This document shows, piece by piece, positions 39,199-62,485 of a DNA stretch of 64,000 bases. This DNA is from Azospirillaceae bacterium (GTDB lineage: Bacteria > Pseudomonadota > Alphaproteobacteria > Azospirillales > Azospirillaceae), in assembly GCA_028283825.1 (NCBI GenBank), contig JAPWJW010000001.1, positions 2,046,001 through 2,110,000 on the forward strand. Reading direction: 5' to 3'. The stretch's first letter is position 1; every line of letters begins with the position of its first letter. The position numbers and the translations under genes were made by a program. The notes under the pieces were generated by a model that saw nothing but the letters and a program-made list of their open reading frames with translations, was not told the origin of the DNA and did no database searches.

Positions 39199-39328
39199 CG
39201 GCGGCATGAGATTTTGGCTCATGCCGCCGTAGGCCCCGACCGGGGCCGCCGGAAGTTTCCGGGAAGCGTAGCGGACTGGAAACTGAGGACCAGCCAAACC
39301 GGCGGATGCCGGTGCCGGCGACTGAGGA
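39199..39328 (-). repeat. Structured intergenic repeat, copy 2
   Basis: In reference direction (minus strand) this copy has the stem ACCGGC-ATCC-GCCGGT, a type-A middle (TTTCC...GGAAA arms around AGTCCGCTACGC), the stem GGCCCC-GGTC-GGGGCC, and an outer hairpin with GGCGGCATGAG arms (39199-39228). It lies 17 bp beyond the eipB stop codon, in a convergent intergenic region. Confidence 0.85.
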
Positions 39329-39344
39329 CCGCGTATAAAGCCAC

Positions 39345-40573: not shown

Positions 40574-40590
40574 TCGGCAAATTCTGCCGA
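40574..40590. promoter_or_regulatory. Palindrome TCGGCA-N5-TGCCGA, candidate sigma-54 activator site
   Basis: TCGGCA-AATTC-TGCCGA is a perfect 6-bp inverted repeat with a 5-bp spacer. It lies 60 bp upstream of the -24 element of the sigma-54 promoter that precedes the diguanylate cyclase gene. Matching palindromes occur at 56376-56390 and 57931-57947 upstream of two other sigma-54 promoters. A half-site-like TCTGCCGA lies nearby at 40559. It probably binds an enhancer-binding protein. Confidence 0.6.
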
Positions 40591-40650: not shown

Positions 40651-40666
40651 CGGCACGGCCCTTGCG
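40651..40666 (+). promoter_or_regulatory. Sigma-54 promoter of the diguanylate cyclase gene
   Basis: CGGCACG-GCCC-TTGCG matches TGGCACG-N4-TTGCW at 10 of 12 defined positions, with GG (40652-40653) and GC (40664-40665) exactly ten bases apart. Predicted transcription would begin near 40677, about 35 nt before the ATG at 40712. The rest of the 40305-40711 gap shows only the upstream palindrome. Confidence 0.75.
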
Positions 40667-40711: not shown

Positions 40712-41389
40712 ATGACCCCGCCGGACACCGCCCTGCCCCTGATGCCCGCCATCAACCTGACCCTGCCCCGGGGCCAGATGCCGGTCGGCCTGCGTGGTCC
40801 GGAGGCGGCGGCCAGCCTGAACCAGCTGCTGGTGCAGGAATTGGCCATGCGCCTGGCGGATGCGGAGCGTGTCATCACCGAACAGCGCGACCGCATCGAC
40901 TATCTGGAAACCCTCAGCACCACGGATGAGCTGACCGGCCTGCTGAACCGCCGCGGCTTCCAGTCCGCCTTCCGGCGTGAGCTGGCGGCCGCCCGGCGCG
41001 GCGGCCGGGGCGGCGTGCTGGTGATGGTGGATCTGGACGGCTTCAAGCGCATCAACGATGTCCACGGCCACCAGGCCGGCGACGCCTACCTGCGGGCCGT
41101 CGCCCGCAGCCTGGCCGACCATGTGCGCGCCCAGGACGTGGTGGCCCGCCTGGGCGGCGATGAATTCGCCGTGCTGCTGACCCGTGTGGCCCCCGACCAG
41201 GGCAAGGCCCGCGCCGATGCCCTGTCCCAGACCCTGCACGCCGTGGCCCTGGATTGGCAGACCCACAGCCTGCCCCTGAAGGCCAGCTTCGGGTATCACG
41301 CCTATGGTGCCGACGACCGCGAGGAAGACGTCATCCACCGCGCCGACGTGCTGATGTACCAGACCAAGGCGGCCAGCAAGGCGGCTTGA
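40712..41389 (+). CDS. Diguanylate cyclase (GGDEF domain)
   Basis: The 225-residue cytoplasmic protein has a short N-terminal region with a coiled-coil-like helix (about 35-65, 'LLVQELAMRLADAERVITEQ') and a GGDEF domain. The active-site motif GGDEF is at 148-152 and the inhibitory I-site RAQD at 139-142; 'LSTTDELTGLLNRRGF' and 'VMVDLDGFKRINDVHGHQAG' carry the metal and substrate residues. It should make c-di-GMP and be product-inhibited. No sensor domain is present, so control is likely at transcription, which fits the sigma-54 promoter and palindrome upstream. Confidence 0.93.
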   Translation: MTPPDTALPLMPAINLTLPRGQMPVGLRGPEAAASLNQLLVQELAMRLADAERVITEQRDRIDYLETLSTTDELTGLLNRRGFQSAFRRELAAARRGGRGGVLVMVDLDGFKRINDVHGHQAGDAYLRAVARSLADHVRAQDVVARLGGDEFAVLLTRVAPDQGKARADALSQTLHAVALDWQTHSLPLKASFGYHAYGADDREEDVIHRADVLMYQTKAASKAA

Positions 41390-49811: not shown

Positions 49812-50054
49812 ATGGATACCGCCAAGCTCTTCTGGTCCGGCCGCTCACAAGCCGTACGCCTGCCCAAGGACTTCCGGTTCGAGGGCCAGGAAGTGCGCAT
49901 CCGCCGCCACGGTAACGCGGTGATCCTGGAACCCATCGCCGACAATTGGGACTGGCTGGCCGATGTCATCGGCCCGGTGGATGAAGACTTCGCCAAGGCG
50001 GCCATGGAGCGGCCCGATGACCAGGAACGCCCCGCCCTGGATTTCTTCGAGTGA
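49812..50054 (+). CDS. vapB: VapB-type antitoxin (AbrB/VagC fold)
   Basis: The 80-residue protein MDTAKLFWSGRSQAVRLPKD... has the swapped-hairpin AbrB DNA-binding motif of VagC-like antitoxins ('AKLFWSGRSQAVRLPKDFRF', 'VRIRRHGNAVILEP') and an acidic C-terminal tail that should wrap the toxin. It likely autorepresses with VapC; the upstream TATATATTTTTGATAGATAT tract (49778-49797) holds the promoter. AAAGGAG stands before the start. It overlaps vapC by four bases. Confidence 0.92.
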   Translation: MDTAKLFWSGRSQAVRLPKDFRFEGQEVRIRRHGNAVILEPIADNWDWLADVIGPVDEDFAKAAMERPDDQERPALDFFE

Positions 50055-50440
50055 AGTTCCTGCTGGACACCAATGCCGTCATCGCGGTGATAAAAGGCAA
50101 CCCAGCCTTTCTCAGCCGCATGCAACAGCATAGGCCGGAGGACTTCGGCCTGCCGTCCATCGTGGTGCATGAGCTTTACTTTGGTGCCGCCAAGAGCCAG
50201 CGCCAAGCGGAGAACATGGCCCGGGTGGATGCCCTGCGCTTCCCCGTTCTGGACTTCGACCCCGAGGACGCACGAGAAGCCGGCCTCATCCGCGCCCAAT
50301 TGGCGGCGGCGGGCACGCCCATCGGGCCGTATGACGCACTGATCGCCGGGCAAGCGTTGGCACGCACCCTGACGCTGGTGACGCACAATACGCGGGAATT
50401 TAGACGAGTGTCGGGACTGCGTTGGGAAGACTGGGAATAA
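50051..50440 (+). CDS. vapC: VapC-type PIN-domain ribonuclease toxin
   Basis: This 129-residue PIN protein (GTG 50051 overlapping the vapB stop) has the conserved acidic residues: Asp6 in 'FLLDTNAVIAVIKG', Glu in 'VHELYFGAAKS', and Asp in 'IGPYDALIAGQALA' with 'LVTHNTREFRRV'. VapC toxins cut tRNA or rRNA in a Mg-dependent way and are neutralised by VapB. All catalytic residues are intact, so the module is probably active. Confidence 0.93.
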   Translation: MKFLLDTNAVIAVIKGNPAFLSRMQQHRPEDFGLPSIVVHELYFGAAKSQRQAENMARVDALRFPVLDFDPEDAREAGLIRAQLAAAGTPIGPYDALIAGQALARTLTLVTHNTREFRRVSGLRWEDWE

Positions 50441-51882: not shown

Positions 51883-53703
51883 TCAGCCTTCCTTCGCCTC
51901 CGTGGTGATCTTGGGCTTGGGCAGGTCGAGCTTGATCGACAGTTCCTTCAGGCGCGCGGTGTCCACCGCGTTGGGGGCCTGCATCAGCAGGTCTTCGGCG
52001 CGCTGGTTCAGCGGGAAGACGATGACCTCGCGGATGTTGGGCTCATCGGCCAGCAGCATGACGATGCGGTCGATGCCGGGGGCGGAACCACCATGCGGCG
52101 GGGCGCCCAGCTTGAAGGCCGACAGCATGCCGCCGAAGCGGGTCTCGAGGTCCTCGGCCGAATAGCCGGCGATCTCGAACGCCTTGTACATGATCTCGGG
52201 CTTGTGGTTACGGATGGCGCCCGAGGACAGTTCGATGCCGTTGCAGACGATGTCGTACTGGAAGGCCTTGATGTCCAGCGGGTTCATGCCGGTCAGGGCC
52301 TCCAGGCCGCCCTGCGGCATGGAGAAGGGGTTGTGGGAGAAGTCGATCTTCCCCGTCTCCTCGTCCTTCTCGTACATCGGGAAGTCGACGATCCAGCAGA
52401 AGCGGAAGGCGCCCTGCTCGATCAGGCCCAGTTCCTCACCCACGCGGGTGCGGGCCTGGCCGGCCAGCTTGGCGGCCGGGCCTTCCAGGTCGCAGACGAA
52501 GAACACGGCATCGCCGTCCACCGCACCGGTCAGCTCACGCAGCATCACCTGCGCCGCTTCCGGCACGAACTTGGCGATGGGGCCCTTGCCGGCGCCATTC
52601 TCGAACAGGATGTAGCCCAGGCCCGGCGCGCCCAGGCCGCGAGCCCAGTCGTTCAGCTTGTCGAAGAAGCTGCGGGGCTTGTCGCCCACGGCCGGCGCCT
52701 TGACGCAGCGGACGACGCCGCCCTTGTCCAGCACACCACGGAAGGCCTTGAACTCCACGTCGTCGCGGCGGAACACGTCCGACACGTCGGTGATCACCAG
52801 CGGGTTGCGCAGGTCCGGCTTGTCGTTGCCGTACTTCAGCATGCTCTCCGCGAAGGGGATGCGCGGGAACGGATAGGGGCTGACGGTCTTGGCCACACCG
52901 GTGAAGTCGCGGAATTCCGTGAAGATGCCGTGGATGACGGGCTCGATCGCGGCGAACACGTCGTCCTGCGTCACGAAGCTCATCTCGAAATCGAGCTGGT
53001 AGAACTCGCCGGGTGAGCGGTCGGCGCGGCTGTCCTCGTCCCGGAAGCAGGGGGCGATCTGGAAGTAGCGGTCGAAGCCCGCCACCATCAGCAGCTGCTT
53101 GAACTGCTGCGGCGCCTGCGGCAGGGCGTAGAACTTGCCGGGATGGTTGCGCGCCGGCACCAGGAAGTCGCGGGCGCCTTCCGGCGAGGACGAGGTCAGG
53201 ATGGGGGTCTGGAACTCGGTGAAGCCGGCGTCGATCATGCGGCGGCGGGCCGAGGCGATGACGTTGGAGCGCAGGTGGATGTTGCGGTGCATCTTGGTGC
53301 GCCGCAGATCCAGGAAGCGATAGCGCAGGCGGATGTCCTCACCCGCGTCCTGGTCGGAGTTCACCTGCAGCGGCAGCTGGTCGGCCAGGCTCTGCACCAC
53401 GACCTCATCCGCCTTCACCTCGACATGGCCGGTGGGCAGCTTGTCGTTGATGGTGTCGCCGGTGCGGGCCACGACGCGGCCGGTGACGGTGATCACCGAT
53501 TCCAGGCGCGCAGCCTCCAGCACCTTGAAGCCGGGATTGTCGATATCGATCACGCACTGCGTCAGGCCGTAATTGTCGCGCAGGTCGACAAACAGCAATT
53601 GGCCATGGTCACGCTTGCGGTGGATCCAGCCGGAGAGGCGGACGGTCTTGCCGGCGTCTTCCAGGCGCAGGGCGCCGCAGGTGTGGGAACGATAGGAGTG
53701 CAT
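51883..53703 (-). CDS. aspS: Aspartate--tRNA ligase
   Basis: The 606-residue class II synthetase has an N-terminal OB fold ('[20 protein letters not shown]'), motif 2 and the active site ('[20 protein letters not shown]', '[20 protein letters not shown]'), the bacterial GAD insertion (about 290-420) and motif 3 ('[20 protein letters not shown]'). It charges tRNA-Asp and, in many alphaproteobacteria, tRNA-Asn as well (non-discriminating form). Length and motifs are complete. It is a single gene with its own terminator; the divergent neighbour is rnd. Confidence 0.97.
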
Positions 53704-53901
53704 GGGGCCGGGCCTTGACGAGTGCGGGTGGGACGAAAACAGCAGCCGACAGCCCCCGGTTGGGGGCGCGGCGAGGTTGCGACACTAGGGCCGGAGGGGG
53801 GCGGCTTGTCAAGCCGGGACGCTTTCCAGAGCCGGCCCGTCACGTCCTAGCCCCCACAGGCCCTATGCACGCGCGCGAAGCTATAGTATGTGAACTTTCT
53901 T

Positions 53902-55053
53902 ATGACCCTGATCACCACGACCGCCGCCCTCGCCGCCTTCTGTGACCGACTGGCCTCCGCCGAGTACGTCACCGTCGACACCGAATTCATGCGGGAAAAG
54001 ACCTACTACCCGCAGCTCTGCCTGGTACAGGTGGCCGGCCCGGATGAGGCCGCGGCCATCGACCCGCTGGCCGACGGCATCGACCTGGCGCCGCTGTTCG
54101 CCCTGCTGGCCAACCCGGCGGTGCTGAAGGTCTTCCACGCGGCACGGCAGGACCTGGAGATTTTCTTCAACCTCACCGGCACCGTGCCCGCCCCGCTGTT
54201 CGACACCCAGGTGGCGGCCATGGTCTGCGGCTTCGGCGACAGCGTGGGGTATGAAACGCTGATCACCAAGCTGACCAACGCGCGCATCGACAAGTCCAGC
54301 CGCTTCACCGACTGGTCCAACCGGCCGCTGACCGAGCGGCAGCTGACCTACGCCCTGTCCGACGTCACCCATCTGCGTCCGGCGTATGAGAAGATCCGCC
54401 GCCGCCTGGACAAGACGGGGCGCGAGGAATGGCTGGCCGATGAGATGGGCATCCTGACCAGCCCGGACACCTACCGCCAGGATCCGGAAGAATCGTGGCG
54501 CCGCCTGAAGCCCCGCACCGACAAGCCGCGCTTCATCGCCGTGCTGAAGGAACTGTGCGCCTGGCGCGAGCGCGAGGCCCAGCGCAAGGACATCCCGCGC
54601 AACCGCGTGGTGCGGGATGAGACCCTGATGGAAATCGCCGCCCACACCCCCAGCACGGTGGATGATTTGGGCCGCACGCGCGGCCTGGGCCCCAGCATGG
54701 CGGCAGGTCGTTACGGCACCGAAATCTTGGCGGCCATCGAAAAGGCGCGCGGCATCCCCGACAGCGACCTGCCCCGGGCGGAACCGCGGGCCGAACTGCC
54801 GGCCGGCATCGCCCCCACGGTGGAACTGCTGCGCGTGCTGCTGAAGCTGGTGTGCGATGACGAGGACGTGGCCAGCCGCCTGGTGGCCAACGCCGCCGAT
54901 CTGGAGGCCATCGCCGCCGATGACGAGGCCAAGGTGCAGGCCATGCGCGGCTGGCGTTACGACCTGTTCGGCAGCCAGGCCCTGGCGCTGAAGCACGGCA
55001 AGCTGGCGCTGGCCATGGCCAACCGCAAGGTGAAGCTGGTCAAGCTGGACTGA
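53902..55053 (+). CDS. rnd: Ribonuclease D
   Basis: From ATG 53902 (MTLITTTAALAAFCDRLASA) the product is 383 residues; GTG 53890 would add four. The DEDDy exonuclease core has Asp-x-Glu in 'YVTVDTEFMREKTYYPQLCL', Asp in 'VFHAARQDLEIFF' and Tyr-x3-Asp in 'LTYALSDVTHLRPAYEKI'. An HRDC domain follows (about 210-290, 'RDETLMEIAAHTPSTVDDLG'). RNase D trims tRNA 3' ends. Neither start has a Shine-Dalgarno sequence, and a -10-like TATAGT (53883-53888) lies only 14 bases before the ATG, so the mRNA may be nearly leaderless. Confidence 0.95.
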   Translation: MTLITTTAALAAFCDRLASAEYVTVDTEFMREKTYYPQLCLVQVAGPDEAAAIDPLADGIDLAPLFALLANPAVLKVFHAARQDLEIFFNLTGTVPAPLFDTQVAAMVCGFGDSVGYETLITKLTNARIDKSSRFTDWSNRPLTERQLTYALSDVTHLRPAYEKIRRRLDKTGREEWLADEMGILTSPDTYRQDPEESWRRLKPRTDKPRFIAVLKELCAWREREAQRKDIPRNRVVRDETLMEIAAHTPSTVDDLGRTRGLGPSMAAGRYGTEILAAIEKARGIPDSDLPRAEPRAELPAGIAPTVELLRVLLKLVCDDEDVASRLVANAADLEAIAADDEAKVQAMRGWRYDLFGSQALALKHGKLALAMANRKVKLVKLD

Positions 55054-55084
55054 TCCGGCCGCCGCCCATCTCACCGCCAAAACG

Positions 55085-55122
55085 AAAAACGCCGCCCCCA
55101 GAACCGGAGGGCGGCGTTTTTT
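55085..55122. terminator. Strong terminator after rnd
   Basis: ACGCCGCCC (55089-55097) pairs with GGGCGGCGT (55109-55117), preceded by AAAAA and followed by TTTTTT. It works on the plus strand for rnd and could also serve the minus strand. Confidence 0.9.
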
Positions 55123-55131
55123 ATATGGTTG

Positions 55132-55262
55132 CCCTCAGTCGCCGGGCGCGGGCATCCACCCGCTTGGCTTTCTCGCCTTCCAGTCCGCTCCGTTCCCCGA
55201 AAGGCTCCGGCGGCCCCAGCCGGGGCCTATGGCGGCACGAGGAAAAACCTCATGCCGCCGGT
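55132..55262 (+). repeat. Structured intergenic repeat, copy 4
   Basis: Stem GCGGGC-ATCC-ACCCGC (one C-A mismatch), type-A middle with CCTTCC/GAAAGG arms, stem GGCCCC-AGCC-GGGGCC, and an outer hairpin with GGCGGCACGAGG and CCTCATGCCGCC arms around AAAAA. It ends nine bases from the stop of the Ser/Thr-rich gene at 55271 and follows the rnd terminator. Confidence 0.85.
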
Positions 55263-55270
55263 GCGAGGGA

Positions 55271-56182
55271 TCAGCCGAAGGCGGAGCCCTGTAGCTGCGC
55301 CATGAAGGTCAGGGCGGAACCACTGAGCAGTGAGCTGGGGTCGATGGTGGTGCCATCGAGCGTGATGCCGTTGGTCGAACTGCTGCCAGACGTGCCGTCA
55401 CTGCTGCTGGAGGCGACGGCGGTGCTGGTGCTGGAGGAACTGTCCGACGACGTGCCGTCACTGCCGGAGGCCCCGCCCGGCGGCGGCGGGGGCGGCGGGC
55501 CCATGGTACTGGCTGTCGATGTGCTGCTGGTGGACGTGCCGCTGGTGCTGGACGCGGTCGACGTGCTGGACGACGAGTCGCTGGTGCCGGTCGTGCTGGA
55601 ATCACTATCCGAGCTGGAATCGCTGGAGCTTGAGGACAGACCGCTCATCAGCTGTTCCAACATCGCCAGCAAGGAGTCGGTGCTGCCGGACGTCGATGTG
55701 GTGCCGGTGGTGGACGACGTGTCGTCGGTGGATGAGGAACTGCTGGTGTCGGATGCGCTGGACGTGCTGTCCGTACCGGAACTGCTGGAGGACGAGCCGG
55801 ACATCAGCTGCTGCAGCATCTCCATCAACGGGTCGGTGCCGTCGGACGTGCTGGACGTACCGCTGCTGCCGCTGGTGGTGGAGGATGTGGAATCGCTGGC
55901 GGCGGTGGCATCGGTGCCGTCGATGCCCTGCAGCATGGCGGCGAAGCTGCCGGTCTGGAAACTGCCGAAGGGATTGCTGACGCCATTGGCGGTGGTGCCG
56001 TTGTCGTTCAGCAGGCCGGCCAAGCCACCGCTGGAGGAAGAGGACGAGGTATCGTCCGTCGAACTCGTGTCGTCGGTGCTGGACGTGCCGAAGGTCGACG
56101 AGGTGGACGTACTCGACGACATTTGCGACAGCCAGGCGCTGTAAAGCGACTGGGTCGAATTGGTTGAGGAGACTGAGCTCAT
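55271..56182 (-). CDS. Ser/Thr-rich low-complexity protein A
   Basis: From ATG 56182 (MSSVSSTNSTQSLYSAWLSQ), which has GGAGAG upstream, the product is 303 residues. About half are Ser or Thr, with many Asp. The ends are not low-complexity: the start shares 'MSSVS...S.Y.AW' and the end shares 'LSGSALTFMAQLQGS' with the protein encoded at 56768-57724. Hydrophobic islands recur inside ('NPFGSFQTGSFAAMLQGI', 'DPLMEMLQQLMSG', 'DSLLAMLEQLMSG'). There is no Sec signal or membrane helix and no known domain. I do not recognise the function. Upstream lie a sigma-54 promoter and a palindrome shared with two other genes. Confidence 0.75.
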   Translation of the reverse strand: MSSVSSTNSTQSLYSAWLSQMSSSTSTSSTFGTSSTDDTSSTDDTSSSSSSGGLAGLLNDNGTTANGVSNPFGSFQTGSFAAMLQGIDGTDATAASDSTSSTTSGSSGTSSTSDGTDPLMEMLQQLMSGSSSSSSGTDSTSSASDTSSSSSTDDTSSTTGTTSTSGSTDSLLAMLEQLMSGLSSSSSDSSSDSDSSTTGTSDSSSSTSTASSTSGTSTSSTSTASTMGPPPPPPPGGASGSDGTSSDSSSSTSTAVASSSSDGTSGSSSTNGITLDGTTIDPSSLLSGSALTFMAQLQGSAFG

Positions 56183-56246
56183 CGGGGGCTCTCCAGGAAG
56201 GGATCCCTCAAGGACGGCTCCCCCAACCGGTTGCCCCCCCAAGGAT

Positions 56247-56289
56247 GCGCGAACACGCGCCAGCCGCCCTCAAAGCAACTGCCGTACCA
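56247..56289 (-). promoter_or_regulatory. Sigma-54 promoter and shared leader motif of gene A
   Basis: On the minus strand TGGTACG-GCAG-TTGCT (56289-56274) matches the sigma-54 consensus with GG and GC exactly ten bases apart. Predicted transcription begins near 56263, about 80 nt before the ATG at 56182. Just inside the transcript is GCGCGTGTTCGCGC (56260-56247), which is also found at the same place upstream of gene B. Confidence 0.75.
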
Positions 56290-56375
56290 GGTATCACAGC
56301 CTTGATTCCATTAGATTCAGAGAGGTGCGCCAGCAGTGATCATGTATTTATGGGCGACAGCAGGCAAAATCATCC

Positions 56376-56390
56376 CGGCAATTTCTGCCG
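56376..56390. promoter_or_regulatory. Palindrome CGGCA-N5-TGCCG upstream of gene A
   Basis: CGGCA-ATTTC-TGCCG lies about 90 bp upstream of the -24 element, a usual distance for an enhancer site. A degenerate second copy (CCGGCAGGAATTTCATGCC) follows at 56393-56411. It matches the palindromes at 40574 and 57931. Confidence 0.6.
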
Positions 56391-56533
56391 ACCCGGCAGG
56401 AATTTCATGCCCATCTTGGATGATTTTAACTTTTGCATTGTTGTAAATATCTGATTTTACTGCATTCCTGTTTGGCACGATAATTTCCCGAACTGGTACA
56501 CGCGGCATTTGATCGTGACCGCTCAACTGCCGC

Positions 56534-56655
56534 CCCTCAGTCGCCGGGCGCCGACATCCGTCGGCTTGGCTCATCCTCACTTTCCAGTCCGCTACGCTCC
56601 CCGGAAAGCTCCGGCAGCCCCGGTCGGGGCCTACAGCGGCACGCGTGCCGCTGGT
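56534..56655 (+). repeat. Structured intergenic repeat, copy 5
   Basis: Stem GCCGAC-ATCC-GTCGGC (perfect, and different on both sides from other copies), type-A middle with CTTTCC/GGAAAG arms, stem GCCCC-GGTC-GGGGC, and outer stem CAGCGGCACG/CGTGCCGCTG. It lies between gene A and gene B, antisense to both. It and the gene A promoter region fill the 585 bp gap 56183-56767. Confidence 0.85.
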
Positions 56656-56767
56656 ATCATTCCCGCCCGGGCGGCATGCGGCGGGGCATGGTTTCATACC
56701 GCCGCCACAGGACCGAATTGAGGGGACGCGGGCGCCACCCGTTTTGGGGGCCGCGTCCGTAGGCCGA

Positions 56768-57724
56768 TCAGGCCGCCGCGAGGGAACCCTGCAACTGCGC
56801 CATGAACATCAGGGCGGAACCGCTGAGCATCGTGCTGTTGTCGATGGTGACGCCGCCGAACGTCGTGGTGCCGTTCGCCGATGCGGTCGCGGTGGTGCTG
56901 GTGGAGGTGCTGGACGACGACGTGCCGTCGGTCGCGCCCAGGATGCTGGCGGCCGAGGTCGGGTCGGTGTCATCGGTGCTGGTGTCGCTCAGCAGCGTGG
57001 AGGTCGAGGACGAGGCCCCACCGACCCCACCACCACCGCTGCCGCCATGATGATGCCCGCCGTGATGGCCGCCGCCCGCCGACTTCAGCGCGGTCTGCGC
57101 CTCGGACTGGCTGATGCTGCCGTTGCCGTCACTGTCCATCGCCGCGAACACCTTGTCCGCCAGTTCGGTGGCACCGGTACCGGTGCCGAAGGCGCTTTCG
57201 AACGCCGACTTGCTGATACCGTCGGTGGACGCGTCGGTGCCGTCGGTGGTGGTGGCGTCCGTGGTCGTGGTGCTGGAGGCGGCCGACGTGGTCGCCGTGG
57301 AGGTGGAGGTGCCGTTGGCGAGCTGCGTCAGCAGGCTCATCAGCGGGTCCTCCTGGGAACCATCCTGACCGGAAGGCGGCGGCCCCGGCGGCGGGCCGGG
57401 CGGGGGACCGCCGGCGCCGGACGCGTCAGCCGTGGACCCGTCCGTGCCGGACGCCTCGGTGGTGGACGGGTCGTTGCTGTTGCCGATGTCCTGCAGCATG
57501 GCCAGCAGGTCGCCCAGCTGGAAGGAAAACGGGTTACTGCCGGTGGTGGAAGTGGACCCGGAGCCCCCGCCCAGCAGCGACGAAAGATCGTCCGTGCCGG
57601 TGGTGGAGCCGGTGGTTGACGTGGTGTCATCGCTGCCGGCCGTGGTGGTCGACGTGCGGGACGCCCATTGGGCTTGCCAGGCGCCATAAGACGACTGGGA
57701 TCCCGAGGCGGATACCGAACTCAT
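56768..57724 (-). CDS. Ser/Thr-rich protein B with EF-hand motif
   Basis: The 318-residue product (MSSVSASGSQSSYGAWQAQW) shares with protein A the N-terminal 'MSSVS..S' plus 'Y.AW', an internal 'NPFSFQLGDLLAMLQDIGNS' island, 'EDPLMSLLTQLANG', and the C-terminal 'LSGSALMFMAQLQGS'. Between are Ser/Thr/Asp tracts, a Pro-rich run ('GPPPGPPPGPPPSG'), a helical segment 'SKSAFESAFGTGTGATELAD' and one canonical EF-hand loop 'DSDGNGSISQSE', then a His/Gly run. Calcium binding is likely. There is no Sec signal. The shared ends around variable middles suggest an export or assembly signal, but the function is unknown. Confidence 0.8.
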   Translation of the reverse strand: MSSVSASGSQSSYGAWQAQWASRTSTTTAGSDDTTSTTGSTTGTDDLSSLLGGGSGSTSTTGSNPFSFQLGDLLAMLQDIGNSNDPSTTEASGTDGSTADASGAGGPPPGPPPGPPPSGQDGSQEDPLMSLLTQLANGTSTSTATTSAASSTTTTDATTTDGTDASTDGISKSAFESAFGTGTGATELADKVFAAMDSDGNGSISQSEAQTALKSAGGGHHGGHHHGGSGGGGVGGASSSTSTLLSDTSTDDTDPTSAASILGATDGTSSSSTSTSTTATASANGTTTFGGVTIDNSTMLSGSALMFMAQLQGSLAAA

Positions 57725-57800
57725 GACATGGGTTCTCCCCGGTGAAGGAACCCTGGATGACGCCGCCCGAAGATGCCCCGCCGGCCCCGTCCATGGGATG

Positions 57801-57845
57801 GCGCGAACACGCGCACACCCACGGCCCGTCGCAACGGCGGGACCA
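57801..57845 (-). promoter_or_regulatory. Sigma-54 promoter and shared leader motif of gene B
   Basis: On the minus strand TGGTCCC-GCCG-TTGCG (57845-57830) has GG and GC ten bases apart and a good -12 TTGC. Its -24 half is weaker than in gene A. The leader motif GCGCGTGTTCGCGC (57814-57801) follows at the same distance as in gene A. Predicted transcription begins near 57819, about 95 nt before the ATG. Confidence 0.7.
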
Positions 57846-57930
57846 TTACTTACTTATTTGTAAAGATTGAGAGATTCGGTGCACGTTCGCAGATATGGAA
57901 CATATGTGCGAACATATCGGCAGAATCTAG

Positions 57931-57947
57931 CCGGCAGTTTCTGCCGG
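57931..57947. promoter_or_regulatory. Palindrome CCGGCA-N5-TGCCGG upstream of gene B
   Basis: CCGGCA-GTTTC-TGCCGG is a perfect 6-bp dyad about 90 bp upstream of the -24 element. A half-site TCGGCAGAATC precedes it at 57918. Together with the hairpin at 58036 it accounts for most of the structure in the 57725-58086 gap. Confidence 0.6.
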
Positions 57948-58035
57948 TCGGGCGGAATCCGATTCCGCTTTGATTGCACTAATGCAGGAATTGGGCCGGG
58001 CAAATGCCTGGTTTTACTTCACTTGGGCCAGACAC

Positions 58036-58075
58036 GCCTTGGGCCCCGGGGATATCAATCCCCGGGGCCCAAGGC
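58036..58075. terminator. Long perfect hairpin after secDF
   Basis: GCCTTGGGCCCCGGGGAT (58036-58053) pairs over 18 bp with its complement at 58058-58075 around a 4-nt loop. It starts 11 bases beyond the secDF stop codon. No T-tract follows, so it may end transcription with Rho or protect the 3' end. Confidence 0.65.
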
Positions 58076-58086
58076 ATGGAAAACCA

Positions 58087-60612
58087 TCACTCCGCCGGGG
58101 TGGCGGGGGCAGCGGCCCCGTCGGCCGGCGTCGGCCGTCGCAGGCTCTTCTCACCCAGGAACAGCAGGATGGGGGCGGCGATGAAGATGGAGGAGGACGT
58201 GGCCAGCACCACGCCGAACAGCAGCACCCAGGCGAACTCGCGCAGTTGTTCGCCCGCCAGCAGGGCCAGCGGCACCGTCACCAGGAAGATGGCCAGCGAG
58301 GTGCCGATGGTCCGGCTCAGCGTCTCATTGATGCTGCGGTCGATCAGTTCGCGCAGCGGCATCTTGCGATACAGGCGCAGATTCTCACGCACACGGTCAT
58401 AGACCACGACCTTGTCGTTGATCGAGTAGCCCATGATGGTGAGGATGGCGGCGATGGACGTCAGGTTGAACTGCATGCCGGTGATGGCGAAGAAGCCCAC
58501 CGTCTTGGTCACGTCCAGCAACATGGTCACCACCGCACCGATGCCGAACTGCCATTCGAAGCGGAAGGTGATGTAGATCAGCATGGCGATGGACGCCAGC
58601 CCCAGGGCCAGCATGCCGTCGTGGAACAGTTCGGCGCTGACCGATGCGCCGACGGCTTCCTGGCGGCGGATGACGCTGCCGGGGAAGTCCTTGGTCAACT
58701 CATCCTGCACGGCCTTCACCGCACCCTGCTGGGCGGCGTCGCCGCCGGCCTGCTGTTCCAGGCGCATCAGCACGTCGGACGGCGAACCGAACTGCTGCAA
58801 CTGGACGGGGCCCAGATGCAGGGTTTCCATCTTGGAGCGCAGCTTGGCGAAGTCGGCCGGGCCCTCGGTGCGGATCTCGATCACCACGCCGCCGGCGAAG
58901 TCCACGCCGTAGTTCAGGCCCGGCTTGAAGAACAGCACGATGGAGGCGATGGACAGCAGCACGGACATGCCGATGCCCATGTGCCGCCCCTTCATGAAGG
59001 AAATGTTGGTGTGGTCCGGCGCCGGGCGCAGGCGGGTGCCGACGTTCAGCGTCTTGGGCCGGAAGCGGCGGAACCAGGTGGCCGTGATGAGGCGCGCCAC
59101 CACCGTGGCCGTGAACATCGAGGTTATGATGCCCAGGCTGATGGTCACGGCGAAGCCCTTGATGGTGCCGGTGCCCACCGAGAACAGGATGGCCATCTTG
59201 ATCAGCGTGGTCAGGTTGCTATCGGTGATGGTGGCGTAGGCCTTGGAGAAGCCGGCCTCCAGCGCGCCCAGCGGCGTGGCCCCTTTGCGCAATTCCTCGC
59301 GGATACGCTCATTGATCAGGATGTTGGCGTCGACGGCCATGCCCAGGGTCAGCAGCGCGCCGGCGATACCGGGCAGGGTCAGCGTCGCTTGCAGCAGGCC
59401 CAGCAAGGCCAGGGTCAGGAACAGGTTGCACAGCAGGGCGATGTTGGCGAACACGCCGAACAGGCCGTAGCTGACGATCATGTAGATGACGACCAGCACG
59501 AAGCCCACGCCCACGGCGGTGAGGCCGGCATGGATGCTGTCGGCACCCAGCTCCGGTCCGATGGTCCGTTCTTCCACCACCGTCAGCGGCACCGGCAGGG
59601 CACCGGCGCGCAGCAGCACGGCCAGGTCGTTGGCGCTCTGCGCCGTGAAGTTGCCGGTGATCTGGCCACTGCCGCCGGTGATGGGCGTCTCGATCACCGG
59701 GGCGCTGATGACCTTGTCGTCCAGCACGATGGCGAAGGGCTTGCCCACGTTGTTGGCCGTGGTCTCGGCGAAACGGCGGGCGCCAATGCTGTCGAAGCGG
59801 AAGGTGACGACCCAGCGGCCGGTCTGGTCGGTGCTGGGGCTGGAATCGGTCAGGTTGGCGCCATCGACCTCAATCTTCTTGCGCACCAGGACCTTGCGCT
59901 CACCCCGGCCGTCGGCGGCGGTCAGCAGCTGGGTGCCCGGGGGGGCGGCGCCATCGGGGCGCACGGCCTCACCATCCGCCACCAGGCGGAAGGTCATCTT
60001 GGCGGTGGTGCCGATCAGCTTCTTGATGCGGCCGGGGTCGTCCACGCCCGGCAACTGCACCAGGATGCGGTCGCTGCCCTGGCGGGCCACGACGGGCTCG
60101 TTCACGCCGGTCTCGTCGATACGGCGGCGGACGATTTCCTGGGACTGCGCCATCGCCTTGGAAATGCGGTCCTTGAAACCGGCATCGGTCAGGCTGAGCG
60201 TCAGGGTGGCGCCATCGGTGTTCAGGTCGATCTCGGGCACGCCGCTGCCGGTGGCGGCGCTGGCCGTCTGTGCCAGGGCCGCCCGCGCGGCGTCCATCGT
60301 GGACTCGTCCGCCAGGGTGACGACCACGGACCGGGCGGCCGGCGTCACGCTGGCGGTGGCGACCTTGGCGGTCCGCAGGGCGGTGCGCACCTCATCCGTC
60401 AGGCTTTCCACCCGCTCCTTGGCGACGGCATCGGTATCCACCTGCAACAGCAGGTAGGAACCACCCTTCAGGTCCAGGCCCAGATTGACGTGCCGGTCGG
60501 CTATCCAGCCGGGCAGGTATTTCGGGCTGATCAGGCTGGGCAGTGAGAACACCACGCCCAGCAGGCAGACAAGGGCGATCAACGCGGACTTCAGGGGCGA
60601 AAAGCGCAGCAT
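58087..60612 (-). CDS. secDF: Fused protein-export membrane protein SecDF
   Basis: The 841-residue protein joins SecD (about 1-530) and SecF (about 545-841), each with six transmembrane helices and a large periplasmic loop after the first. SecD motifs: 'VNLGLDLKGGSYLLLQVD', 'GVNEPVVARQGSDRILVQLP', 'LTLPGIAGALLTLGMAVDAN'. SecF motifs: 'GLNYGVDFAGGVVIEIRTEG', 'TIMGYSINDKVVVYDRVREN'. SecDF uses the proton gradient to help SecYEG pull proteins across the membrane. Fused forms are common in alphaproteobacteria. No yajC gene is next to it in this window. Confidence 0.96.
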   Translation of the reverse strand: MLRFSPLKSALIALVCLLGVVFSLPSLISPKYLPGWIADRHVNLGLDLKGGSYLLLQVDTDAVAKERVESLTDEVRTALRTAKVATASVTPAARSVVVTLADESTMDAARAALAQTASAATGSGVPEIDLNTDGATLTLSLTDAGFKDRISKAMAQSQEIVRRRIDETGVNEPVVARQGSDRILVQLPGVDDPGRIKKLIGTTAKMTFRLVADGEAVRPDGAAPPGTQLLTAADGRGERKVLVRKKIEVDGANLTDSSPSTDQTGRWVVTFRFDSIGARRFAETTANNVGKPFAIVLDDKVISAPVIETPITGGSGQITGNFTAQSANDLAVLLRAGALPVPLTVVEERTIGPELGADSIHAGLTAVGVGFVLVVIYMIVSYGLFGVFANIALLCNLFLTLALLGLLQATLTLPGIAGALLTLGMAVDANILINERIREELRKGATPLGALEAGFSKAYATITDSNLTTLIKMAILFSVGTGTIKGFAVTISLGIITSMFTATVVARLITATWFRRFRPKTLNVGTRLRPAPDHTNISFMKGRHMGIGMSVLLSIASIVLFFKPGLNYGVDFAGGVVIEIRTEGPADFAKLRSKMETLHLGPVQLQQFGSPSDVLMRLEQQAGGDAAQQGAVKAVQDELTKDFPGSVIRRQEAVGASVSAELFHDGMLALGLASIAMLIYITFRFEWQFGIGAVVTMLLDVTKTVGFFAITGMQFNLTSIAAILTIMGYSINDKVVVYDRVRENLRLYRKMPLRELIDRSINETLSRTIGTSLAIFLVTVPLALLAGEQLREFAWVLLFGVVLATSSSIFIAAPILLFLGEKSLRRPTPADGAAAPATPAE

Positions 60613-60775
60613 AGGTGACGACGTCCTTGGGTCCTGGCGCGGGCCGGGGCCCGGTGCAGGGAACAGGCGGACCGGGCGGGGACACCCACCACGGGCCGGT
60701 TAAACCAAGCGCCTTGAATACTCGCAGCCCCGCACGCTTCCAACCAAAAAAGCGACGCGGTGTTGTTCTTATGCC

Positions 60776-60868
60776 CCCTCAAGCGCCGGGCGCTGGCATC
60801 CGCCAGCTTGGCTGATCCTCGCTCCGCCCTTCTGTGCTCGCTCCGGGGCCGGCGGTCGCCGGCCTTGA
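60776..60868 (+). repeat. Structured intergenic repeat, copy 6
   Basis: Stem GCTGGC-ATCC-GCCAGC, type-B middle shared with copy 1 (CTCCGCCCTTCTGTGCTCGC), and second stem GGCCGGC-GGTC-GCCGGCC, again changed on both sides. No clear outer stem. It ends 24 bp from the stop codon of the ATP-grasp gene and is antisense to it. Confidence 0.85.
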
Positions 60869-60892
60869 ACCAGTGCTCTCATACCCCTGGCG

Positions 60893-62485
60893 TCACGCCA
60901 CCGCCGCCCGCACCGCCGCCGTGCGGGCCAAGGCCGCCTGCTCAGCCGGCGGCAGGCTGGCGGCGCCGCGACGGTGATCCAGGAAATGGCGCAGGACGCG
61001 GCGCCATAGCTGGGGGCCTTCCGCCCGGTCTTCCGCGCCCACATCCAGGTTGGAATTGTCGTTCACCTCGATCACCACCACCCGGCCCTCCGCCGTCTGT
61101 TTCAGGTCCACCCCGTAGAGGCCATTGCCCATCAGGCGGGCCGCCTTTAGCGCCGCCACCAATACCGCCGGTGGGGCGTCTGCCACGGCCACGGCGCGGG
61201 TGGCGCCTTCGTCATGGCTGCCGTCGGCGCCATGGCGCACGATCTGCCAGTGGTGGGCGCACATATGATATTGCGCGACGAACAGCACCTGCCCGCCCAG
61301 CACGCCCACCCGCCAGTCGAAGGCCGTGGGCAGGTATTCCTGCGCCAGGATGATTTCCGACCGGTCCAGCAGGCCTGCGGCCACGCGATGGAAGGCGTCG
61401 ATGTCCATCACCCGCTCCACGCCGCGACAGAAGGCGCCGTCCGGTACCTTCAGCACGGCGGGAAAGGCCAGCGTGGCCGCCGCGCGGGCCAGGCCATCGC
61501 GGGTGATCAGGTGGGTGCGCGGTGTCGCGATGCCGTGGCCGGCCAGGGTTTCCGCCAGGTAGACCTTGTTGGTGCAGCGCAGGATGCTGGTGGGATCATC
61601 CACCACCGGGATGCCCAGCGCCTCCGCCTTGCGGGCAAAGCGGAAGGTGTGGTGGGGCACGGCCGTGGTCTCGCGGATGAACAGGCCGTCGAAGCTGGCC
61701 AGGTGGCGATGGTCGCGGCGGCCGATGACCTCCACCCGCATGCCCATGTCGGCACCGACGCGGGCCAGGTGGGCCAAGGTGGCGGCCTTGCTGGGCGGCA
61801 ACGGGTCGGCCGGGTCGTGCAGCACCGCCAGGGTGAAGGCGGGCGCGGCCCGGCCCCGGGGATGCTGCCAGCGACGCCGGGCGTAGGCGTCCAGCGCCGA
61901 CAGGAATAGGGCGTCGTGCGCCGGGGGCACGCCGTCAGGCCCCAGCGGCGCCACACCGGCGATATGCCAGGCGCCTTCCCGAAAAACCAACGTCAGGCGC
62001 ATCAGGGGGCAGTCCAGCCGCTGGAACAGCCGGGCGGCCAGATTGGCCAGGCCGGCGTCGGGCGTTTGCCCGAAATAGATGTTGGCGACGCGGCGCTCCG
62101 CCCCTGCCGCCGGCGGCGGCAGGGTGCCCAGGCCGGCGTCCAGGTCCGCCAGGCCATCGGCCAGGTCGGTGCCGGTCATGTCCGCCAGGGTCCGCAGCGC
62201 CGGGGTGACGCGATCGCCCCGCGCCTCCGCCAACAGCGAGGCGTAATAGCCGGCCGACAGATAATCGGCATGGCGGCACAGATTGATGACGCGGCGTGAT
62301 CGCCCGGGCGATGCCGAGGCCGCGACATAGGCGCCGGCGGTCATCACCCGGCCAGCGGGGTCGGGCCAGCGGAAGTCACGCCTTCGTTCCACCACGATGG
62401 TCACATCAACGGGCGGCGACGATCTAACGGGCGATGCGGGGATGGATGAGGGAACGGCGACGGGTCCTGTGGAACAGTCCGGCAT
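60893..62485 (-). CDS. RimK-like ATP-grasp ligase with RLAN N-terminal domain
   Basis: The 530-residue protein has an N-terminal RLAN domain (about 25-200; 'VINLCRHADYLSAGYYASLL' and 'ANIYFGQTPDAGLANLAARL') and a C-terminal ATP-grasp domain (about 290-505; 'SILRCTNKVYLAETLAGHGI', 'FPAVLKVPDGAFCRGVERVM', 'ILAQEYLPTAFDWRVGVLGG', 'VVVIEVNDNSNLDVGAEDRA' with the Mg ligands Glu and Asn). Such proteins are predicted peptide ligases adding amino acids to a peptide or protein; substrates are unknown. A 63-residue gene lies 12 bp upstream on the same strand and a GNAT gene is divergent, the usual company of RLAN proteins. Confidence 0.88.
   Translation of the reverse strand: MPDCSTGPVAVPSSIPASPVRSSPPVDVTIVVERRRDFRWPDPAGRVMTAGAYVAASASPGRSRRVINLCRHADYLSAGYYASLLAEARGDRVTPALRTLADMTGTDLADGLADLDAGLGTLPPPAAGAERRVANIYFGQTPDAGLANLAARLFQRLDCPLMRLTLVFREGAWHIAGVAPLGPDGVPPAHDALFLSALDAYARRRWQHPRGRAAPAFTLAVLHDPADPLPPSKAATLAHLARVGADMGMRVEVIGRRDHRHLASFDGLFIRETTAVPHHTFRFARKAEALGIPVVDDPTSILRCTNKVYLAETLAGHGIATPRTHLITRDGLARAAATLAFPAVLKVPDGAFCRGVERVMDIDAFHRVAAGLLDRSEIILAQEYLPTAFDWRVGVLGGQVLFVAQYHMCAHHWQIVRHGADGSHDEGATRAVAVADAPPAVLVAALKAARLMGNGLYGVDLKQTAEGRVVVIEVNDNSNLDVGAEDRAEGPQLWRRVLRHFLDHRRGAASLPPAEQAALARTAAVRAAVA

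Follow-up and report, generated by a model that had tools for sequence, protein, structure and literature searches.

Why do two adjacent bacterial proteins keep their ends constant around a middle that varies freely, and by which route would they leave the cell if they carry no Sec signal? This question is raised by a window of 64,000 nucleotides (the whole stretch of DNA analysed, from contig JAPWJW010000001.1), in which two minus-strand open reading frames (ORFs), here called A and B, lie between rnd and secDF. The window genome, G000 (7.16 Mb, 5 contigs, completeness 99.99), belongs to the genus Nitrospirillum, and we compared it to six congeners, G001 to G006. The initial annotation had placed both ORFs correctly, without giving a strand, and had suggested that their ends are handled by a dedicated machine such as an export apparatus. 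Our analysis gives this suggestion a concrete form: the two genes very probably belong to the flagellar regulon of FlbD and sigma54, and their products are probably exported by the flagellum.

The promoters carry the first part of this answer. We compared eight upstream regions, namely those of B in G000, G001, G002, G004 and G005, of the single related gene in G003 and G006, and of A in the window. In all eight an inverted repeat GGCA-N5-TGCC (GGCANNNNNTGCC, hereafter the box) is located exactly 100 bp ahead of the TGG of a sigma54-type element. The box reads GGCAGAAANTGCC in seven of the regions and GGCATGAAATGCC in G004, and the sigma54-type element reads TGGTCCCNNNNTTGCG in all seven regions except that of window A. 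In the upstream alignment a second half-box follows 21 bp downstream of the first box. By sequence match a sigma54-type promoter is present in 8/8 of these regions (B, single genes, window A) and also in 4/4 congener A orthologs. It had been suggested that A and B share promoters with a diguanylate cyclase. The type of box and sigma54 element is indeed the same, but the GGDEF gene has a separate promoter, 15 kb from A and B, with a different spacing between box and sigma54 element. We also observed, in six congeners, a divergent sigma54-like element (e.g. TGGCATGCCGGTTGCC) that shares the box and is directed towards the 3' end of secDF; in the window it appears degenerate by eye (56183-56767, 57725-58086), and it may correspond to a short RNA or to nothing.

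We then examined which other genes carry this arrangement. In G000 there are only four sites with at most one mismatch to CGGCAGAAAYTGCCGG, preceding A, B, flgK and flgF, compared to 2 for the reversed control. FlgK and FlgF were identified by TIGR02492 and TIGR02490 over cut-off, and the spacing between box and sigma54 element is 79 at flgK and 87 at flgF-flgG. Across the seven genomes of the genus the pattern of box plus sigma54 element gave 51 matches vs 12 for the reversed control. Its targets include flgK in 7/7 genomes by translation and the GGDEF gene (window position 40712) in 7/7 by matched DNA (5 seen by translation). On matched DNA a TPR protein is a target in 4 genomes, in one of them also by translation. 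The A, B and single genes account for 8 of the 51 matches, and six matches are divergent sigma54-like sites that share the same box. The 19 leftover matches include some that lie in coding sequence and are probably chance. FlbD itself is encoded in G000 (equivalog NF050807, 783 bits, cut-off 750) in a fliF-fliN-flbD-flhA cluster. Since A and B have box and sigma54 promoters in common with flagellar genes and FlbD is encoded in the genome, there is little doubt in our view that, judging by sequence, both belong to the FlbD/sigma54 flagellar regulon. The box would then be the FlbD-binding ftr site, whose consensus we take to be similar to it. In Caulobacter, FlbD is likewise encoded and activates sigma54-dependent genes, rod and hook genes included, via ftr sites upstream of the sigma54 promoter, a layout like that of A and B (PMC3930126 and PMC7064773). 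Our literature search found no EF-hand protein in the Caulobacter FlbD regulon. In an rpoN study of Bradyrhizobium DOA9 an EF-hand protein, which may belong to this family, is among the downregulated genes (PMC13207237).

Several further flagellar features were noted in passing. About 8 kb past the window end (L273:7798-16686; G000:C1:2117.8-2126.7 kb) the genome carries flgD, flgE, flgK, flgL-like, small flagellin and fliD genes again, for the most part lacking a box; this second set resembles the RpoE6 cluster described in Azospirillum brasilense (PMC12826043). At L273:5676-7307 (minus strand, G000) a 544-aa ORF, TPR-like by eye, has a one-mismatch box at -118 and no good sigma54 site. A Ser/Thr-rich protein (VTSSTATSLLQNTTTAASNA...) without family match is encoded at L272:14610-15347 (minus strand), near flgK and a 947-aa hook gene. 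The TPR protein of locus L059 and of related pattern matches has a methyltransferase match and the same promoter type in four congeners. We considered whether it could be like FlmG, the Caulobacter TPR flagellin glycosyltransferase (PMC7591256), but Pfam gave no glycosyltransferase domain in its available part.

Relatives of A and B occur in 6/6 congeners searched, so that the terminal motifs are not confined to the two window genes; within G000 we found no third copy or other clear relative. The pair is present in 5/7 genomes (G000, G001, G002, G004 and G005, in G001 split over two contigs), and a single related gene of 230 and 238 residues, without EF-hand loop, in G003 and G006, respectively. 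In the five congeners whose contigs cover the locus the relatives are flanked by rnd and secDF, and in G001 secDF precedes B. The adjacency to secDF that had been pointed out is thus correct, with secDF on the same strand and the neighbourhood conserved in the genus. We nevertheless rejected it as a functional link because A and B show no Sec signal. The ratio of nonsynonymous to synonymous substitution rates (dN/dS) is 0.27-0.42 among the five B orthologs and 0.26-0.50 among the four congener A orthologs, compared to 0.76-0.99 for window A against the latter. The filler between the conserved parts varies in length and content among orthologs; the terminal residues are invariant. Outside the genus, G020 (a different genus of the same family) yielded two relatives, and a lone weak match in G033 was not convincing.

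The likeness of A and B to each other was assessed with local alignment scores against 2000 composition-preserving shuffles, for four segments picked around the motifs of the initial annotation. All four exceeded every shuffle: the N-terminal 30 residues (score 68, shuffle maximum 64), the first internal island (61 vs 54), the second (57 vs 52) and the C-terminal 40 residues (100 vs 62). The AlphaFold2 model of B, based on ten orthologs, has a mean predicted local distance difference test score of 50.5 and is mostly low-confidence chain, with predicted helices at 10-25, 67-80, 127-136, 172-217 (the EF-hand region) and 296-317. In this model the conserved islands coincide with short predicted helices, and the chain as a whole looks disordered. 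The ten A and B proteins contain 1 Cys in 3059 residues and 26 Lys+Arg vs 262 Asp+Glu. Their first 15 residues are 39% Ser+Thr, with no Lys or Arg. The absence of a cleavable Sec signal, already asserted earlier, agrees with our results as judged from hydropathy and composition only: the N-termini are Ser/Thr-rich and uncharged, and over the first 40 residues the best 13-residue Kyte-Doolittle mean is 0.07 for A and -0.2 for B. The EF-hand attributed to B is a candidate: its loop is kept in 4/4 congener B orthologs, and the Pfam EF-hand score (20.1 bits) falls below the gathering cut-off of 25 and is suggestive. An EF-hand (DTDGDGTLSQSEAQ) is also kept in four congener A orthologs and has been lost from window A. 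It is not essential to this type of protein, as window A and the single genes of two congeners do without it. Pfam and NCBIfam scans of A and B returned only the weak EF-hand match and one to the effector XopAW, apart from a DUF1631 match in the family scan (E 0.31) that we put down to chance. A tblastn search of B against plasmids gave no match, and Rfam gave none at gathering thresholds across 53500-61000.

How could such proteins be exported? Each of the seven Nitrospirillum genomes contains one FHIPEP (export-gate) gene, in G000 the flhA of the fliF-fliN-flbD cluster. A type III route, if A and B use one, must therefore be flagellar. FlgD and FliD are standard substrates of flagellar export. 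In G000 they begin with VTSVSSTSSSSSSTS and MTSVSTISTSGSSTT (VTSVSSTSSSSSSTSTSSSSSSTSS and MTSVSTISTSGSSTTTSTSTSSGSSSS), close in style to MSSVSSTNSTQSLYSAW of A and MTSISSLGSSQSLYSAW of the A orthologs. These N-terminal features are consistent with export, not proof of it. With the flagellar promoters, the single export-gate gene and the FlgD/FliD-like starts, export of A and B has become more likely than it was when the initial annotation proposed it, and among the routes the flagellar type III apparatus is the most likely given the missing Sec signal, the near-absence of Cys, the Ser/Thr-rich uncharged N-termini and the disordered body. As the best explanation of these features as a whole, we consider A and B probable flagellar export substrates.

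To relate these proteins to those of other lineages, relatives were collected with NF041410, the XopAW model. At least 136 of 289 alphaproteobacterial genomes matched, and 137 loci were taken among the matches listed, a scope that applies to all counts of this comparison. Ten loci were left unparsed, including L106, which was recovered by hand, and L132, L147 and L229, which have Sec-type signals. The 127 parsed loci divide into 112 with a hydrophobic Sec-type stretch and 15 that are signal-less by score. L149, L182 and L206 (signal-less) were left out as another type, as were 21/112 Sec-type genes whose start is not placed just before the stretch. We compared the 300 bp upstream of 91 Sec-signal genes and 18 signal-less genes (13 NF041410 loci plus L051, L052, L097, L098 and L099), the starts of the latter chosen by eye and the pairs L105/L106 and L137/L167, each from one genus, not being independent. 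In this comparison, which is partly post hoc as the sigma54 sites of L051, L105, L106, L108 and L112 had been seen before it was designed, a sigma54 score of at least 5 of 8 was reached by 11/18 signal-less and 6/91 Sec-signal genes (Fisher p 7e-7), a score of at least 6 by 6/18 and 1/91, and a box with at most one mismatch was found in 6/18 and 3/91, respectively.

Box and sigma54 element in the right order and at the right distance were observed in 7/29 signal-less genes vs 0/91 Sec-signal genes. The carriers of this composite site (L051, L097, L108, L112, L115, L259 and L267) are all among the 21 signal-less genes from the class, and none of the 8 genes from elsewhere carries it. The Bradyrhizobium lablabi gene L097 and the similar L259 and L267 each show two boxes ~20 bp apart, an arrangement also seen in Nitrospirillum. 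We also searched ten further genomes with the pattern and obtained 17 matches vs 1 for the reversed control: 6 signal-less EF-hand genes, 3 flgE-like genes, 1 fliK and 7 others. As these genomes were picked as carriers and the spacing was set from EF-hand promoters, the 6 EF-hand matches are partly circular; the flgE-like and fliK matches are not. The fliK was identified by PF02120, and of the flgE-like genes one has FlgE_D2 and two have, in their available part, only the FlgE/F/G D1 domain. By these matches, hook-stage and EF-hand genes have this control element in common in other lineages as well. One of the 7 others, a 221-aa protein (L277:1634 ff., G347) starting with MISSLSSAALPHLRPASSASNASS ~33 bases after a box and sigma54 site, shows no EF-hand and could add a further member to the signal-less products; the remaining six are unremarkable by eye.

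The N-termini separate the two groups in the same way. For 16 signal-less relatives the first 15 residues are 40% Ser+Thr, with 0.4% Lys+Arg after Met, compared to 15.5% and 12.8% for the 91 Sec-signal relatives. An expression for an LL.AQE motif, written after inspecting the signal-less set, gave 11/16, 10/10 and 0/91. By eye, signal-less alphaproteobacterial EF-hand proteins from 17 genera, including Nitrospirillum, have a Ser-rich start, an EF-hand and often an LL.AQE-like motif; many have a sigma54-type site, with or without a box, and their middles and the number of EF-hands vary. A tblastn search of L105 against plasmids matched 45 Rhizobium records, 0 of them covering 80% of the query; these are annotated 'EF-hand domain-containing protein'. 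Sigma28-like sites were also sought in relatives outside the class; among 11 loci inspected, only L265 (G359, same phylum) was convincing, with 11/13 positions. This signal-less EF-hand gene has TAAAG-N14-ACCGATAT at -82, hinting at flagellar control outside Alphaproteobacteria.

A number of observations count against flagellar control and export. In G000 no strict box precedes the three flagellins, flgD, flgE2, flgB or fliD. Upstream of flgK2 there is only a one-mismatch match, at -270, and a good sigma54 site is missing there; the 947-aa hook gene combines a sigma54-like site with a one-mismatch box ~200 bp upstream. The four congener A orthologs have the sigma54-type element (TGGAAYRNNNNTTGC) without the box. 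Among the signal-less relatives 7/18 score below 5 for sigma54 and 22/29 lack the composite site. A later phylum-wide search, the fresher check of the sigma54 enrichment, contributed 11 signal-less genes of which 4 reach a score of 5 and 2 reach 6. The Pfam flagellar families (FlgE/K/L, flagellin, FliK) do not match A or B. Finally, FHIPEP is present in 22/22 genomes carrying signal-less relatives and in 22/24 carrying Sec-signal relatives, so that co-occurrence does not discriminate.

Three other explanations have to be weighed against this background. A and B could be co-regulated with the flagellum yet remain cytoplasmic, for instance as regulators that respond to calcium or metals, or as chaperones or scaffolds in flagellar assembly. 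The promoter evidence bears on regulation alone, and this promoter type also occurs with a GGDEF protein that presumably stays in the cytoplasm; however, the near-absent Cys, the predicted disorder, an N-terminus with 39% Ser+Thr and no Lys or Arg, and the likeness to FlgD and FliD fit secretion better, and we regard a cytoplasmic role as rather unlikely. It appears improbable that A and B leave the cell by type I secretion, lysis or vesicles and that their co-expression with the flagellum serves just a switch of lifestyle: the conserved C-terminal helix could be a type I signal, and calcium-binding type I substrates are known (PMC10574481), but by eye A and B contain no GGXGXD-type repeats, although no model search was aimed at type I secretion genes. 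That A and B are fast-evolving low-complexity ORFs of little function with an inherited flagellar promoter would fit the lost EF-hand and raised dN/dS of window A and the variable filler, but seems very improbable given the dN/dS of 0.26-0.50 among the other orthologs, the invariant terminal residues and the promoter architecture shared by B or the single gene in all six congeners.

If export through the flagellum is correct, the following course of events can be proposed. Activity of Caulobacter FlbD depends on early flagellar structure. Once FlbD binds the upstream inverted repeat, sigma54 RNA polymerase would transcribe A and B, which would be made alongside rod and hook-filament junction proteins (flgF, flgK) and then be exported via the flagellar type III apparatus. 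The short conserved helices (N-terminus, NPF..AMLQ, DPLM..L and C-terminus) might be read by the export or a chaperone machinery, with the filler as spacer. Outside the cell B could bind calcium through the EF-hand and perhaps other metals through its His-rich stretch, and might act as a calcium-dependent secreted or filament- or hook-associated protein in transitions from motility to surface life; an extracellular calcium role is plausible only. We tentatively extend this to the wider class of signal-less, Ser-rich, largely disordered alphaproteobacterial EF-hand proteins (the Nitrospirillum family, Bradyrhizobium and others), which might be late FlbD/sigma54 products exported through the flagellum, coupling its assembly to the release of a calcium-binding exoprotein, with XopAW-like injectisome substrates as relatives recruited to another type III machine.

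A few known systems come close to A and B. B matches the XopAW model weakly (16.1 bits) over the EF-hand and the region following it, far below the 120-bit cut-off, and A does not match. XopAW, from Xanthomonas, is a family of calcium-binding EF-hand proteins that bears the name of a type III effector and is listed in an effector table (PMC8951399). Nitrospirillum differs from this system in that its single FHIPEP-superfamily export-gate gene lies in a flagellar cluster. Calsymin (CasA of Rhizobium etli) is described as a secreted EF-hand protein, with three domains carrying EF-hand motifs and an expression tied to colonisation and infection (PMC10574481), and can be likened to B by this description. 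Our search of the open-licence literature found no report of A/B-like proteins in an FlbD regulon or as flagellar substrates, nor any route or regulator assigned to the unexplained EF-hand proteins of many Alphaproteobacteria, for which our analysis offers a testable function. If the export is true, flagella of these plant- and soil-associated bacteria also secrete calcium-binding proteins at the stage of hook and junction building, and calcium, motility and surface attachment are linked. The cis-element alone would permit listing further members.

Table 1. Positions of A, B, their promoter elements and neighbouring genes in the window
Feature	Position	Strand	Remarks
Protein A	55271..56182	-	303 aa, Ser/Thr/Asp-rich, without Sec signal; EF-hand region lost vs congener orthologs
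A N-terminal segment MSSVSSTNSTQSLYSAWLSQ	56123..56182	-	conserved; proposed export signal (putative role)
A C-terminal motif LSGSALTFMAQLQGS	55283..55327	-	
Sigma54-type -24/-12 element TGGTACGGCAGTTGCT	56274..56289	-	upstream of A
Box CGGCAGAAATTGCCGG	56375..56390	-	upstream of A, 100 bp from sigma54 element; proposed FlbD site (putative binding)
Protein B	56768..57724	-	318 aa, EF-hand, His-rich and Pro-rich stretches, without Sec signal
B N-terminal segment MSSVSASGSQSSYGAWQAQW	57665..57724	-	predicted helix 10-25; proposed export signal (putative role)
B EF-hand loop DSDGNGSISQSE	57101..57136	-	
B C-terminal motif LSGSALMFMAQLQGS	56783..56827	-	inside predicted helix 296-317
Sigma54-type element TGGTCCCGCCGTTGCG	57830..57845	-	upstream of B, conserved in genus
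Box CGGCAGAAACTGCCGG	57931..57946	-	upstream of B; proposed FlbD site (putative binding)
Second half-box TTCTGCCG	57918..57925	-	21 bp from first B box
secDF	58087..60612	-	conserved upstream neighbour; name by eye
rnd (ribonuclease D)	53890..55053	+	conserved neighbour on other side; name by eye
GGDEF protein	40712..41389	+	probable diguanylate cyclase, promoter of same type
Box CGGCAAATTCTGCCG	40575..40589	+	upstream of GGDEF gene
Sigma54-type element CGGCACGGCCCTTGCG	40651..40666	+	upstream of GGDEF gene

Two further features of the window were observed. Pieces of an intergenic element (GTAGGCCCCGACCGGGGC, AGCGTAGCGGACTGGAAA and CGCCCGGCGACTGAGG), similar to repetitive extragenic palindromes, recur around 3413 and at 39229-39330, 55132-55150 and 56535-56640. 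On the plus strand, a pair of small ORFs at 49812-50440 resembles by eye the toxin-antitoxin system VapB/VapC.

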